64,000 nucleotides of DNA from Candidatus Eremiobacterota bacterium (GTDB taxonomy: Bacteria > Vulcanimicrobiota > Vulcanimicrobiia > Vulcanimicrobiales > Vulcanimicrobiaceae). The stretch covers positions 2,639,300-2,703,299 of the forward strand of contig JAFAYE010000001.1 in NCBI GenBank assembly GCA_019240525.1. Direction: 5' to 3'. Positions 58,500 through 64,000 of this stretch are shown here, in pieces (the stretch's first letter is position 1; each line of letters opens with the position of its first letter). The notes beneath the pieces are model-generated. The model ran no database searches. It saw only the letters and a program-made list of their open reading frames with translations, and was not told the DNA's origin. Made by a program: the position numbers and the translations under genes.

Positions 58500-59453
58500 T
58501 CACTGATGGACGCTGATCGTTGCGCCCAGCAGTTCGACGTCACCGCGAGGTTCGAGCACTTTCTTAGGTGACCCGCCCGAAGGGTAGGGCCAAAGCCCGG
58601 CCCGATGGACGCTGCGAGGCAGTTTGCCGTAGGGCGAGATGATCACGTTGTTTTGAATCCAAAACTGGGTGAGCAAGGTGCTATGGTCACCGTCGAGATG
58701 CGTACTTCCGACGACCCTGCCGCTGGATGCGGCGACCCTCACGCGATAGATCACGTCGCTCGATAGATCTTCGACCGCGAGGTCGGTGCCGTCCCATTGG
58801 ATCGCTCCGGGATAGGCGATGCGCTCGTTGAGTTTGAAGTCGCGCAGCGAGGTGGCGCCTTTGGGAAGCTCCGCGAACTCCGATTGCGACGTGCCCGCGT
58901 TAACGCCGTCGACATAGAGGTTGCCGCGACCGTCGTATCCGCAGAAGAAGAACTGGTTAAACGAAGGATCGGTGTAGATCGTGCTTCGCATGTTCTTCAT
59001 GCGGTTGTAGACAAGAACGTTGCCCGGTCCGGGCGGTTGGGCGGCTTGGTAATCCGCGACGGCGAGGTTTCCAGTCGTCGGATCAACTGCGCAACCCTGA
59101 GGATAACCCGAGGCGCCGAACACGTGGGTCGGCCGCGTCGCGCCGTGCGAGTATTGAAGAACCGCTTGGCGCGCCGTGTCGACGACGAAGACGTCGCCGT
59201 TTGAATCGGAACATAAGCCGCCAAGTGCTCGGAAACGCGTCAGCATTCCAACTCGCTCGCCCCCGGGATAGGTGAAGACGTAGACGCGGCCGCCCTGGTC
59301 GGAAATATAGAGGAGGTCTTCGCTTTGGGCCTTGTGCGCGATCCACGAAGGGTCGGGCACGGCGTACGTGACGGCGGTTTGCCCGGACGGCAACTGCGTA
59401 GCGCTGCAGCCCCCGAGAACGGCCGCAACAACGCAGGCGAAGATGTTTCTCAC
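58500..59453 (-). CDS. Propeller lipoprotein downstream of the multicopper oxidase
   Basis: 317 residues from a GTG at 59453 that overlaps the oxidase stop as GTGA. Lipobox LGG-Cys16. It is related to the 48-52 kb family: SEDLLYISDQGGRVYVFTYPGG, LGGLCSDSNGDVFVVD, VLQYSHGATRPTHV, CAVDPTTGNLAVADY, FCGYDGRGNLYVDG, DVIYRVRVAASSGRVVG, FWIQNNVII and WPYPSGGSPKK. The frame extends 20 codons upstream, but the GTG gives a proper signal peptide. Confidence 0.82.
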   Translation of the reverse strand: MRNIFACVVAAVLGGCSATQLPSGQTAVTYAVPDPSWIAHKAQSEDLLYISDQGGRVYVFTYPGGERVGMLTRFRALGGLCSDSNGDVFVVDTARQAVLQYSHGATRPTHVFGASGYPQGCAVDPTTGNLAVADYQAAQPPGPGNVLVYNRMKNMRSTIYTDPSFNQFFFCGYDGRGNLYVDGVNAGTSQSEFAELPKGATSLRDFKLNERIAYPGAIQWDGTDLAVEDLSSDVIYRVRVAASSGRVVGSTHLDGDHSTLLTQFWIQNNVIISPYGKLPRSVHRAGLWPYPSGGSPKKVLEPRGDVELLGATISVHQ

Positions 59454-60997
59454 AGATCGATGGCCTGAATCTTTGCCATCATTCCGTGATCTTCGTGATC
59501 GAGGATGTGACAATGGAAGAGAAACGTTCCCTTGATGATCGGGTCGCGAAAATCCATCAACATCAAGAGCGTGCCCGCTTTGCCGTTGCTTTGGCGGTGC
59601 GGGATGATGAAGCTATCGGCCCAATACGGATGCGGAACCTTGATGCTGTTGATCTCCCTGACGAGAAAATGGACTTGGTGGATATGGAAATCGTGCACTT
59701 CCCCGGTGATGTTCTTGACGAGCCATTCTTCGACGGTGCCCGTATGAACCACGAACATCGGCGGGTCGCTCATTGAAAAGGCCTTGTGGTTGATGAAGAA
59801 GTGCTTGTTTCCTTCACTAAAAACGACGACGCGGTGAGCGGCGACCGGCGGAAGCTGCGAGGTGTAGACGTTTTGCGGAAGCGCCGCGGCGGCGCGCAGC
59901 AACTCCGGCGCTTGGAATTTTAGCGAGGGTCGACTTGTTGGCGGTTTGAGACTCGCAAGCTCGAGTTTTGGGTCGCGATCGCCGGCTGGACCGGAGTCGT
60001 AGCAGAGCGTCCAAAATTTTGCGCGCGGGCTGCGCGGACCGGTTACGACAAACTCGACGCGCGAAGCGGGAGGCACGATCGCCGCAGATTCGGTTAAGGT
60101 TGGCGGCGTGGCGCGCCACGTGTCGAGCGGAAAGCCGTCGATCGCGACGACTTCGAGATTCGACCCGTCGACGGCGAGCTTGAGCGTCTTGTGCCCAGTG
60201 GCGTTGATCACGCGAAAGAATTGCTTTTCGCCTGGAGCAATGGTTATCACGGGCTCATAGGCGTCGTTGAGCGTCGTTTCCCCACCAAACTCGGGACCAC
60301 ACGGATCGCTATTGATGACTTGCGGTTGCACTATGGCGCCGCGCGATTGGGCCGCGTTGCCCACGACATTGTCGCGCACGATGATGACGTGCGTTTTCAT
60401 CTTCGCCAAGCCGGGAAGGTGGCGCTCTAATCCATTGACGACGATTGCGCCCGACATCCCCGCCTCGCCGACCTGATAGTTCGTTTCACCATGAACGTGC
60501 GGATGATACCAGTAGAGGCCGGGTTCTTGATTTTGCGGGACGTGCACGACGTAGTGAAGTGCTTGCCCCGGCCGCGCGAGGGTTCCGAGCACGTCGTCGG
60601 CAGGAGCACGCGGCGAGGCACCGAGGCCGTGAAAATGAATGTTGATATCAAACTTGTCGCCTTCGCGCTGCGGGAGCTCGTCGGTCACGTCGAGCACTAT
60701 GGTGTCGCCGGGATTGACGCGGATCGTCGGAGCGGTATCCGACATGCCGCCAAAAACGAACTGCGGAAGCTGGGTCTCGAGACGGTATGTGACGCTAAGC
60801 GAGACTCGGGCAACGCCATTGACCGAGCGCACGACGGGCGGTTCAGGAAGCTCGCCCGAGTTCCCGGTAGGTGAAACTCCGCGGTGAAGATCAAGCTGCG
60901 AAGCTTGCGGCACCGAAAAGAGCGGCGCGCTGGATTGGCCGCCGCAACCAGCGAGCCATGCGCAAGCAATTGCCAGAGCGAGAAAGCGCCGAAACAT
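59450..60997 (-). CDS. Multicopper oxidase lipoprotein
   Basis: 515 residues from the ATG at 60997; lipobox LAG-Cys18. All four copper-binding motifs are present: HFHGLG, WYHPHVHGE, FHIHQVHFLV and HCHILDHEDHGMM. The last holds the type 1 Cys, His and axial Met. Three cupredoxin domains are expected. It oxidises phenols, metals or similar donors with O2; the substrate is unknown. The longer open frame to 61696 is out of phase with the preceding gene and is rejected. It is flanked on both sides by propeller lipoprotein genes. Confidence 0.93.
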   Translation of the reverse strand: MFRRFLALAIACAWLAGCGGQSSAPLFSVPQASQLDLHRGVSPTGNSGELPEPPVVRSVNGVARVSLSVTYRLETQLPQFVFGGMSDTAPTIRVNPGDTIVLDVTDELPQREGDKFDINIHFHGLGASPRAPADDVLGTLARPGQALHYVVHVPQNQEPGLYWYHPHVHGETNYQVGEAGMSGAIVVNGLERHLPGLAKMKTHVIIVRDNVVGNAAQSRGAIVQPQVINSDPCGPEFGGETTLNDAYEPVITIAPGEKQFFRVINATGHKTLKLAVDGSNLEVVAIDGFPLDTWRATPPTLTESAAIVPPASRVEFVVTGPRSPRAKFWTLCYDSGPAGDRDPKLELASLKPPTSRPSLKFQAPELLRAAAALPQNVYTSQLPPVAAHRVVVFSEGNKHFFINHKAFSMSDPPMFVVHTGTVEEWLVKNITGEVHDFHIHQVHFLVREINSIKVPHPYWADSFIIPHRQSNGKAGTLLMLMDFRDPIIKGTFLFHCHILDHEDHGMMAKIQAIDL

Positions 60998-61017
60998 GCT
61001 TCGTCGCTTAGGAGCTT

Positions 61018-61932
61018 TCACGGCAGACTTACCGCGGCGGCATACGCCCGCAGCGAACCGAACGTCTTCGCGGGAGAGCCGCCCTCGGGGTATTTCCACA
61101 AGCCGACGCGAGATTCGTCGTCGGCGGCAATCACTGTCTTCGCTTGGATCCAATACTGTTGCAGCTTCGCGGTTTTTTGTAGTATCGTCGAGCCGACCTT
61201 GGTGGCGGTTCTTGCGCCGATCGAGAATCGGTAGAGCACCGAAGGCGAAACGCCGGCGTCGCCGACCGTGACGTATTTGCCATCCCATTGCACTTGTCCG
61301 GGAGCCGCGATGCTTTGACTTACCGTGAGATTTACCAACGCGCGAGCGCCGCGCGGTAACTCCGCGAGCCGGAAGTCTCCGTCTGCACTTGTCCCGTCGA
61401 TGAAGAGATTTCCGGCGGCGTCGTAACCGCAGAAATATGCGGTGCGGATCGACGTGTCGCTGTAGCGCCTCGGATCGCGCCAGATTCCGCGGGTACTGCG
61501 GTGATAAACGGAAAGAATCGTCCCGTTGGCGCCGCCGCTGACCGCGAGGTTGTCGATTCTTGGGTCGACGGAGCAACCGCGGGGCGCTCCGAACGTGCTG
61601 AGCGCCGCGACGGGCTTGGACGCGCCATGGGAGTACTCGACCACTTGGAATGCCTGAACGTCGGCGATCCAAACGTTTCCAGCCGCGTCGGCGCATTCGC
61701 CGCGCGGGCGGCCGATCTCCGTGATTTTGCCGACGACTTTTCCTTCGGGATAGGAGAAGATGTCGACGTCATTAGTCGCGAGGTTCGAAACGTAAAGGAG
61801 GCTCTGGGTCGTCGCGGCTGCGTCCAATCCCGGTGGTACGACGGGTGGGCGACTGAGCTGCACGACTGATGGGTTGCAGCCGGAGAAGAGAGCAATGGAG
61901 AACAACGCAGCTAGAGCTCGCCTAGGAAGCAC
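61018..61932 (-). CDS. Propeller lipoprotein upstream of the multicopper oxidase
   Basis: 304 residues, lipobox FSG-Cys19. Same family as the gene at 58500: LLYVSNLATNDVDIFSYPEGKVVG, CADAAGNVWIAD, VVEYSHGASKPVAAL, CSVDPRIDNLAVSG, YFCGYDAAGNLFIDG, QVQWDGKYVTVGD and LWKYPEGGSPAKT. It ends 20 bases before the oxidase start. First gene of the five-gene minus-strand set. Confidence 0.82.
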   Translation of the reverse strand: MLPRRALAALFSIALFSGCNPSVVQLSRPPVVPPGLDAAATTQSLLYVSNLATNDVDIFSYPEGKVVGKITEIGRPRGECADAAGNVWIADVQAFQVVEYSHGASKPVAALSTFGAPRGCSVDPRIDNLAVSGGANGTILSVYHRSTRGIWRDPRRYSDTSIRTAYFCGYDAAGNLFIDGTSADGDFRLAELPRGARALVNLTVSQSIAAPGQVQWDGKYVTVGDAGVSPSVLYRFSIGARTATKVGSTILQKTAKLQQYWIQAKTVIAADDESRVGLWKYPEGGSPAKTFGSLRAYAAAVSLP

Positions 61933-62080
61933 TTTGCTCAGTTTTGCTAAGGGGTGCGCTTTTACCCGGCGTAGAGCCGCTTGCGCCAGTCACGCTTGCG
62001 CTGCTTGATATAATCGTGACGCAGGCGGCGCGCGCAGTCCGCTTCAAGCCGCTAATCAAAGGGAGAGCGCGACGAAAGGT

Positions 62081-62563
62081 ATGGGTCGAGAACGTCTTTG
62101 CGCTGTCGCAATGCTGGCATTCGGGCTCGCATGCACACCAGCGGCATGGGCGCAGAGCGCAACAGATCCGATGACCTGGATGAACTTTCTCGTTGGGCAC
62201 TGGACCTGCACGTCGGTGGCGGGCGGAAAAATGACAAGTTACACGACGGATTGGGAGCTTGTGCCAGGCGGGCGCTGGATGCGGGGCACGAACCGTTCGG
62301 GCACGAGCGCGAGTGAAGATCTTGAGACATACGACCTTGCTACCAAGCAGTGGCGTACCGTCGATCTAGAACCCGACGGCAGCATGTCGGTCCTCGTTTC
62401 CAGCCGCGGCGCAAGCGCGCAACGCATTGCCACACAATCGGTCTATCCCGATGACTCGCAGAGAGTGGCGTTCGAAAAGCAGAGCAACGATGAGTATAAA
62501 CTGACCTTCGACTTCCTTATCAAGGGCAAGCACGCATTGTGGGAAGACCACTGCAGGAGATAA
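62081..62563 (+). CDS. Secreted DUF1579-like protein
   Basis: 160 residues with a signal peptide ending near AWA-QSA. WMNFLVGHWTCTSVAGG begins a small beta-barrel-like domain with TDWELVPGGRWMRGTN and LETYDLATKQWRTVDL, like DUF1579 and related calycin-type proteins. Function is unknown. It ends nine bases before the GloVer gene. Confidence 0.65.
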   Translation: MGRERLCAVAMLAFGLACTPAAWAQSATDPMTWMNFLVGHWTCTSVAGGKMTSYTTDWELVPGGRWMRGTNRSGTSASEDLETYDLATKQWRTVDLEPDGSMSVLVSSRGASAQRIATQSVYPDDSQRVAFEKQSNDEYKLTFDFLIKGKHALWEDHCRR

Positions 62564-62572
62564 CACAAACGA

Positions 62573-63934
62573 ATGAAGACATCAGCTCGCATCAGTTACG
62601 TACTAGGCTGCGTCACGTTGGCATTACTTACAGCGTGTGGCGCCCTTCGACAGGCTCAGGGTGACAGTGCCCTTCCACAGGCTCAGGGTGACAATGCCCT
62701 TCGACAGGCTCAGGGTGACAGTACCCTTCCTCAGGCTCAGGGTGACATGCCCCTCGTCGCAGCGTCGAAGCATCGCGTCAATCGCGCGACTTCATATCAA
62801 CTGATCTATAGCTTTCGTCCTCAAAAGAACGGTATTTATCCTGAAGCGGGATTGCTCGACGTCAACGGCACCTTGTATGGGACGACGGCGAGTGGGGGTC
62901 TTTCGGGCAAGGGAACCGTCTATGGCATCGGCACGAGCGGCGTGCCCAAGGTGCTCTACCGATTCCGAGGTGGTTCCGACGGAAGCGAGCCGCAATCCGC
63001 ATTACTCAACGTGAACGGTACGCTGTACGGCACCACTGCCTACGGAGGTTCGTCCAACGCTGGAACGATCTATAGCATTAGTACTTCGGGAACCGAAAGT
63101 GTGGTGTACAGCTTCAAGGGAGGCGCCGATGGAGCTAACCCGGTCGCGGGTCTGGTCGATGTGAACGGCACGTTGTACGGCACGACTTCCGCCGGAGGCG
63201 GTTCGGGATGTTATGGCGGCGCCGGGTGCGGGACCGTATTCAGCGTCGGCGCGAGCGGCCAAGAGAGTGTTCTACACCGTTTCACCGGTGGCGCTGACGG
63301 CGCGGTGCCCGTGGCCGAGTTAATTGACGTCAACGGCGTGCTATACGGCACTACCGCGCAGGGCGGCAAGTGCGGGGGCAAGTCCGGCGACTGCGGGACG
63401 GTTTACACCATCACGCCGGCCGGTACGGAAAAGGTGCTCTATGCCTTTCGTGGGGGGACTGACGGGGAGGCGCCGACGGCGGGGTTGATCGATATGAACG
63501 GTACGCTTTATGGCACGACGTATCAAGGTGGTCAGAGCGGGTCGGATTGCGGCGGCAGTTGCGGCACGGTCTATCAAATCAGCCCGGCAGGAGCGGAAAA
63601 AGTCATCTACCGTTTTGCGGACGGCACCGACGGTGCGGCGCCGCAAGCCGAGTTGATAGCGGTGAACGGCGTGCTGTACGGCACGACGACCGGGGGCGGC
63701 GATGTCGGATCGTGCTTCCAGTTCCACGGCAACTGCGGAACCGTCTTTAGCGTAACCACCGCGGGCGTCGAGACGGTGCTGTATCGCTTCGTCGGTGGAA
63801 CCGACGGTTGGTCACCCCTGGCACCCTTGACGAATTTGAACGGCACGCTCTATGGAACGACGGTACACGGAGGAGTCCGCGACGTTTGCTGCCACACTTA
63901 CGGTTACGGCACGATTTTCTCAGTGTCGCCCTAA
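62573..63934 (+). CDS. GloVer-repeat lipoprotein with four repeat-derived nonapeptides
   Basis: 453 residues, lipobox LTA-Cys22. Residues 25-60 are four nonapeptides of the type LRQAQGDSA or LPQAQGDNA, encoded by four copies of the intergenic short repeat at an exact 27-base period. The rest is about eight GloVer (TIGR03803) repeats: NGTLYGTTASGGLSGKGTVY, ESVVYSFKGGADGANPVAGL and so on. A second gene with a near-identical signal peptide starts at 63962. Confidence 0.9.
   Translation: MKTSARISYVLGCVTLALLTACGALRQAQGDSALPQAQGDNALRQAQGDSTLPQAQGDMPLVAASKHRVNRATSYQLIYSFRPQKNGIYPEAGLLDVNGTLYGTTASGGLSGKGTVYGIGTSGVPKVLYRFRGGSDGSEPQSALLNVNGTLYGTTAYGGSSNAGTIYSISTSGTESVVYSFKGGADGANPVAGLVDVNGTLYGTTSAGGGSGCYGGAGCGTVFSVGASGQESVLHRFTGGADGAVPVAELIDVNGVLYGTTAQGGKCGGKSGDCGTVYTITPAGTEKVLYAFRGGTDGEAPTAGLIDMNGTLYGTTYQGGQSGSDCGGSCGTVYQISPAGAEKVIYRFADGTDGAAPQAELIAVNGVLYGTTTGGGDVGSCFQFHGNCGTVFSVTTAGVETVLYRFVGGTDGWSPLAPLTNLNGTLYGTTVHGGVRDVCCHTYGYGTIFSVSP
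62643..62750 (+). repeat. Four in-frame short-repeat copies in a lipoprotein gene
   Basis: Copies start at 62643, 62670, 62697 and 62724, 27 bases apart. The first and third keep CCCTTCGACAGG; the second has CCACAGG and the fourth CCTCAGG. All keep the reading frame. Confidence 0.95.
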
Positions 63935-63961
63935 AGATTTGGAATGGGAGGTTCAGTCGGT

Positions 63962-64000
63962 ATGAAGAGCTCAGATCGCATCAATTACGCACTAGGCTGC
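63962..64000 (+). CDS. Start of another GloVer-type lipoprotein gene, cut by the window end
   Basis: The 13 visible codons (MKSSDRINYALGC) match the first residues of the preceding protein (MKTSARISYVLGC). GGGAGG lies upstream. A tandem paralogue is very likely. Confidence 0.7.
   Translation, partial: MKSSDRINYALGC

Follow-up and report, generated by a model that had tools for sequence, protein, structure and literature searches.

We found that a repeat of about 24 bp, scattered mainly between genes in a Candidatus Eremiobacterota genome, also occurs within genes for unrelated proteins, and that behind the lipobox of one predicted lipoprotein it forms a coding array of four in-frame copies. 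A REP-like family that colonises protein linkers, and that was here amplified locally into a coding array, is very probably the best account of these observations. The first-pass annotation of the window, by which we mean the whole 64,000-nt stretch of DNA that was analysed, had described the array and proposed that it supplies a flexible surface tether. The observation is real and more general than first described, and the interpretation built on it is partly supported.

Coordinates of the features in the window (all positions in nt of the window)
Feature	Position	Strand	Remarks
Second lipoprotein with the element behind its lipobox, PF04185	15839..17275	+	...MLTACGGLRQAQNDT; stop-to-stop open frame
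GloVer-repeat lipoprotein gene, 453 aa, array host	62573..63934	+	TIGR03803 E 2.5e-68, 7 stretches
Predicted lipoprotein signal peptide	62573..62638	+	MKTSARISYVLGCVTLALLTAC; lipobox LTAC (residues 19-22); assigned by eye and with a regular expression
Repeat copy 1	62643..62666	+	LRQAQGD; exact consensus
Repeat copy 2	62670..62693	+	LPQAQGD
Repeat copy 3	62697..62720	+	LRQAQGD; exact consensus
Repeat copy 4	62724..62747	+	LPQAQGD
Start of the tandem paralogue	63962..64000	+	MKSSDRINYALGC...; continues beyond the window

The N-terminus of the array host reads MKTSARISYVLGCVTLALLTAC-GA-LRQAQGDS-ALPQAQGDN-ALRQAQGDS-TLPQAQGDM, with four copies of CCCTTCGACAGGCTCAGGGTGACA lying head to tail and in frame at a copy-to-copy spacing of 27 bp in 3/3 intervals. 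Tandem Repeats Finder independently recovered the array as 27 bp × 4.1 with a score of 180, so that the four copies and their period are as first described. The signal peptide was assigned by eye and with a regular expression from its n-region, hydrophobic stretch and lipobox, the Cys codon of which occupies 62636-62638. The copies had been placed directly after this Cys; they do lie behind the lipobox, but Cys-Gly-Ala comes first and LRQAQGD starts at Cys+3.

The body of the protein scored 225.6 bits against TIGR03803 (GloVer), for which the curated cut-off is 44, over seven stretches. Comparison of this body with that of the adjacent tandem paralogue gave dN 0.19 and dS 1.15 (dN/dS ~0.17), which indicates that the window gene is under constraint and looks functional. 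AlphaFold2, run on an alignment of three sequences, gave a model with a mean pLDDT of 66.5. In it residues 1-67 score below 50 and have almost no secondary structure, in keeping with the flexible segment that had been proposed, and the body that follows is all-beta. The best Foldseek matches of the model include BamB and quinoprotein dehydrogenases, with modest TM-scores; these proteins are beta-propellers. A tether function of the array is plausible. Only four of the 22 GloVer ORFs in the same genome carry the element, and the other 18 are without it.

The element itself is abundant. The window holds 20 copies at up to three mismatches, compared with 0.00 expected from 100 dinucleotide shuffles, and the genome (2.8 Mb, a draft in 5 contigs) holds 202 at the same threshold, of which 151 share one strand and 51 lie on the opposite one; the array represents a genome-wide intergenic repeat that has become coding behind a lipobox, as had been claimed. 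The consensus of the unit is NNCTTCGACARGCTCAGNNTGACA, drawn from 187 copies in the fetched stretches. Its arms are complementary, and their two outermost positions co-vary as TC/GA (65 copies), TG/CA (57) and CC/GG (30), or 152 of the 177 non-array copies. RNA folding of single units was not better than that of shuffles (z +0.46 to +0.82), so the proposed hairpin rests on arm covariation and not on energy. Neither a GTAG nor a CGTC tag was found within the 24-bp unit in per-position counts of the 177 copies, no Y1 transposase (PF01797) was detected in the 18 genomes of the genus, own genome included (5/14 control genomes were positive), and an RNA-family search of 62000-64000 returned one sub-threshold chance match only. 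Called genes contain at least 12 of the 156 copies examined, a lower bound that leaves aside copies <300 nt from a locus end; the gene calls were heuristic, and genes overlooked by this simple method include at least L259 and the phosphoesterase of the window. A separate stretch of the genome (G000:C1:1902487-1903074), outside called genes, holds more than 20 copies, mostly of a TGC...GCA subtype, at a constant 25-bp period. The core repeat also occurs in records of Sphingomonadales, Actinomycetota, Chloroflexota, Burkholderiales, Acidobacteria, Gemmatimonadota and Saccharibacteria (L082-L111), with no lipoprotein context in that sample.

The period of 27 bases had been taken to point to selection for frame, on the grounds that intergenic clusters in the window are spaced irregularly or at 40 bases. 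This is true of the window, but elsewhere in the genome the repeat forms constant-period arrays, and outside the two array-bearing genes we recorded runs of 24,24,24, of 25 (six or seven successive), of 29,29, of 30,30,30,30 and of 35,35,35. Same-strand spacings of up to 60 in these outside clusters are divisible by three in 22 of 95 cases. Non-coding arrays also keep a constant period, and roughly a third of all periods should be multiples of three, so that a period of 27 bp taken by itself argues only weakly for selection. The tandem paralogue speaks against the argument as well: it carries five 27-bp units and then, after a 38-nt step, a sixth copy that is translated in the second open frame as LRQPFDKLRVT, and the gene nevertheless stays open for 469 codons.

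Comparison of the two paralogues bears on the age of the array. Identity between them is 55/60 in the array and 47/60 in the signal region, the latter hardly closer than the bodies, so that the array either arose after the duplication or has been kept homogeneous. A gene-conversion tract spanning both signal peptide and array was considered and rejected, as no wider tract is visible and the signal region is no better conserved than just stated. A G-to-C change at consensus position 7, which replaces Arg by Pro, is present in 5/10 array copies and 0/177 other copies; the Pro units are probably common to both arrays by descent or conversion, and so are probably not independent events. In two related genomes the orthologues of the window gene have an empty site, reading CGGQPPIVAPGAMPQ (L182) and CGGSQPPVGAPGAM (L183), and we infer that the difference arose by insertion rather than by loss.

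The same arrangement recurs in other lipoproteins. A scan for lipobox-like codons followed by the repeat across 84,980 species yielded 30 loci (31 matches), in which lipoproteins account for 6/6 Candidatus Eremiobacterota loci and 0/24 others, all 24 non-lipoprotein loci lying outside Eremiobacterota. A second scan covered 149 genomes of the phylum at any spacing of 0-30 nt, and 60 loci were fetched: the first 40 came from the listed sites whose match was 23-34 long and were taken with frame disregarded, and the remaining 20 were mostly picked by in-frame length. The 40 frame-blind loci include 14 lipoproteins, all 14 in the LRQAQ frame, and the full 60 include 18 lipoprotein genes in 17 loci, with L181, L212 and L216 set aside for a signal peptide that was not credible or a downstream frame that was too short. 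Over all fetched loci, with rows of up to 60 downstream residues set aside, the tally is 24 lipoprotein genes (23 forward cases and the window phosphoesterase) in nine genomes of one Candidatus Eremiobacterota genus: six in the own genome, six in G052, three each in G038 and G045, two in G053 and one each in G039, G040, G047 and G048. All 24 read LRQAQ[GDNE]D or close to it, and looking among relatives, as the first-pass annotation had suggested, thus turned up many lipoproteins with this peptide past the lipobox. The element has two open forward frames, and the consistent use of the LRQAQ one therefore suggests that selection acts on the protein; copies in bad frames may have been purged.

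The distance from Cys to CTT in these 24 genes is 6 nt in 13, 9 nt in four, 3 nt in two, 18 nt in two, and 21, 24 and 27 nt in one each. A search at the fixed 6-nt spacing gave 14 matches in the 149 genomes, 13 of them within this genus and three of them not lipoproteins (L314, L121 and L317). Two more lipoproteins among the combined loci, L177 and L251, carry an inverted core; the reverse-orientation search was largely uninformative, as its second half matches the tandem repeat copies themselves. In both genes, and similarly in the isoleucyl-tRNA synthetase (IleRS) locus L279, a reverse copy seemingly replaces the core of a forward copy in a nested form (...LPLSLSKGQDD...). The hosts include GloVer proteins, three PF04185 phosphoesterases, a ZnuA-like metal-binding protein (PF01297), NHL/SGL proteins, a glycine-rich PF12810 protein and, weakly, an S8 subtilase, besides several without a family and a GH114 enzyme with the inverted core; judged by sequence, the element lies behind predicted lipoboxes in at least five unrelated families. 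Most of these lipoproteins have one copy. The lipoprotein linker is the commonest insertion place that we found, a share of coding insertions that is biased, since the searches were aimed there. On the minus strand of the window, 59450-61696 is an open frame whose later part resembles, by eye, a multicopper oxidase lipoprotein (MFRRFLALAIACAWLAGCGG...).

Filled and empty sites were also seen among orthologues of other genes. Among the 14 N-termini of ZnuA-like orthologues, G040 has LRQAQGD, G050 has VRQAQGD at a different offset, the own genome has a diverged form, ARQAQGE, and G053 (PSTALRMT) and G038 (PSTALRMA) have a variant repeat in another frame; other orthologues are without the element and have unrelated short linkers. 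The variant repeat at L305 and L306 is CCTTCGACTGCGCTCAGGATG(ACA), translated PSTALRM(T). The IleRS of the own genome (G000:C1:1985173-1987300; L273, L279) has about 63 extra residues that are largely repeat (query 224-295 against 218-226 of PDB 8c9e), with copies in both orientations and mixed frame immediately before FLIWTTTPWTLPAN. The TTTPWTL motif beside this loop belongs to the IleRS editing domain. Within the genus, the element, sometimes as a close variant, is present in 6 of 15 readable IleRS loops, and the loop is empty in other relatives. In 33 IleRS loops of other genera, a non-random sample in which 20 regions were fetched mainly for split or long alignments, the full 15-nt core is present in two (L358, L362) and a 12-nt arm match only, possibly by chance, in five. 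A further ORF, with GH1 and SBP_bac_3 matches (G000:C1:1866217-1868470; L013), has one in-frame repeat in mid-protein, TLRQAQGDKK. Since the same element is inserted in a cytosolic IleRS, its role is not confined to tethering proteins at the surface, and that part of the earlier proposal was too narrow.

In the account that we favour, the REP-like element, abundant between genes, would repeatedly enter coding sequences in this genus, and insertions would survive where a short in-frame peptide is harmless, such as the post-lipobox linker or the IleRS loop beside TTTPWTL. Lipoproteins would retain the element in its hydrophilic open frame, LRQAQ[GD]D. Recombination or slippage may then have multiplied an inserted copy head to tail, 27 bp at a time, in the window gene and in its paralogue, which would lengthen a disordered spacer between the membrane anchor and the beta-propeller-like body. 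Against this stands the identical offset (6 nt from Cys to CTT) in 13 of the 24 genes, which simple tolerance does not predict; the preference for Cys+3 might instead reflect a preferred target, the spread of a cassette or a function. The folding energies, no better than those of shuffles, and the lack of a PF01797 match in the 18 genomes also weigh against it. A stronger proposal, which we consider unlikely, is that post-lipobox codons are the target of a mobile REP-like hairpin or the place where selection favours it, so that lipoproteins gain a shared LRQAQ[GD]D tether at Cys+3 whose length is adjustable by 27-bp amplification.

The repeat might instead have been domesticated, that is, favoured as a lipoprotein tether with its copy number tuned in 27-bp steps, a portable module and not a tolerated parasite. 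The use of Cys+3 in 13/24 genes with a single frame throughout would fit such a role, as would the restriction of the Arg-to-Pro change to half of the array copies (5/10, versus 0/177 elsewhere). The array units show five distinct silent and five replacement changes, compared with about 2.3 silent expected, although at p 0.06 the test is not significant and the units are non-independent. Domestication as a tether sits poorly with copies in the cytosolic IleRS, where orientation and frame are mixed, and in the middle of the GH1/SBP protein, with the single copy of most lipoproteins, and with the presence of the element in merely 4/22 GloVer ORFs of the genome, and we consider it unlikely. Spread by descent is similarly doubtful: here one insertion in a signal-peptide/tether cassette would have been carried between genes by recombination, and recurrence would simply be inheritance. 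Such a cassette would produce the usually identical offset, and several lipoproteins from different families do share tethers of the form C-G-G-S-QPPIGAPGAMPQ or, with the element, C-G-A-LRQAQDD[MT]-QPPIGAPGA. However, ZnuA-like orthologues differ in offset and two genomes have the variant repeat in another frame, other families have offsets of 3, 9, 18, 21, 24 and 27 nt and unlike signal peptides, the signal regions of the paralogues (47/60) are hardly closer than their bodies, and the IleRS insertion is left unexplained. That the array is an assembly artefact of a five-contig draft, in which tandem repeats may be mis-assembled, or lies untranslated upstream of the true start codon, is highly improbable, given that the adjacent genes differ in their arrays (4 versus 5+1 copies) and in unit-specific changes, that a lipobox signal peptide precedes the array in both with frames open for 453 and 469 codons, and that single copies in the same arrangement occur in eight other genomes.

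The reading of the element as a REP-like family with the behaviour of Rickettsia palindromic elements (RPEs) appears, as our best reading, to be new. No exact match to 13- to 17-mers from the element turned up in the literature searched, from which sequences given only in figures would escape; nothing relevant was found on Eremiobacterota together with repeats or lipoproteins, and the word "lipoprotein" does not occur in the main text of PMC3733652. The host protein is a GloVer (TIGR03803) member, and its N-terminal array lies outside the family, 18/22 GloVer ORFs of the own genome having no array. PMC3733652 describes REPs as high-copy elements of 20-40 bp that are mostly intergenic, with some inside ORFs including those of tRNA synthetases, and CGTC REPs as being without a dedicated transposase. 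The element resembles these GTAG and CGTC superfamilies in its 24-bp unit, its 202 mainly intergenic copies and its presence in some ORFs including IleRS, and differs in having neither tag, a short and imperfect stem, and no Y1 match in the genus. Bacterial MITEs (the 107-bp form of Correia/NEMIS, YPAL and Coxiella MITEs) are fused in frame with ORFs (PMC2229807; see also PMC5896051); they likewise turn a mobile non-coding repeat into a protein segment, but are about 100-200 bp long, most with terminal inverted repeats, whereas the element here is about 24 bp.

The closest likeness in behaviour is to RPEs, short palindromes of which many are intergenic and others lie in frame in unrelated conserved proteins (reviewed in PMC2229807). 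The element too lies in frame in unrelated proteins (several lipoprotein families, IleRS and the GH1/SBP protein), and RPEs and intragenic REPs, as the element here, settle at permissive linkers. RPEs are 105-146 bp long and Rickettsia-specific, whereas the unit here is about 24 bp and belongs to Eremiobacterota, with most of the coding copies detected by a targeted search lying behind lipoboxes and with a tandem 27-bp array in addition. Rickettsia provides the best-known examples of palindromic repeats invading protein genes in frame, and the present case extends this to a much shorter element in a candidate phylum known from environmental genomes. The combination of empty and filled orthologue sites, repeated filling (IleRS, ZnuA) and many post-lipobox cases makes the conversion of repeat to protein testable, together with the choice of frame by selection and the evolution of linker length through repeat amplification. 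If the portable-module reading were true, unrelated lipoproteins would have gained the same tether, each with its own adjustable length.
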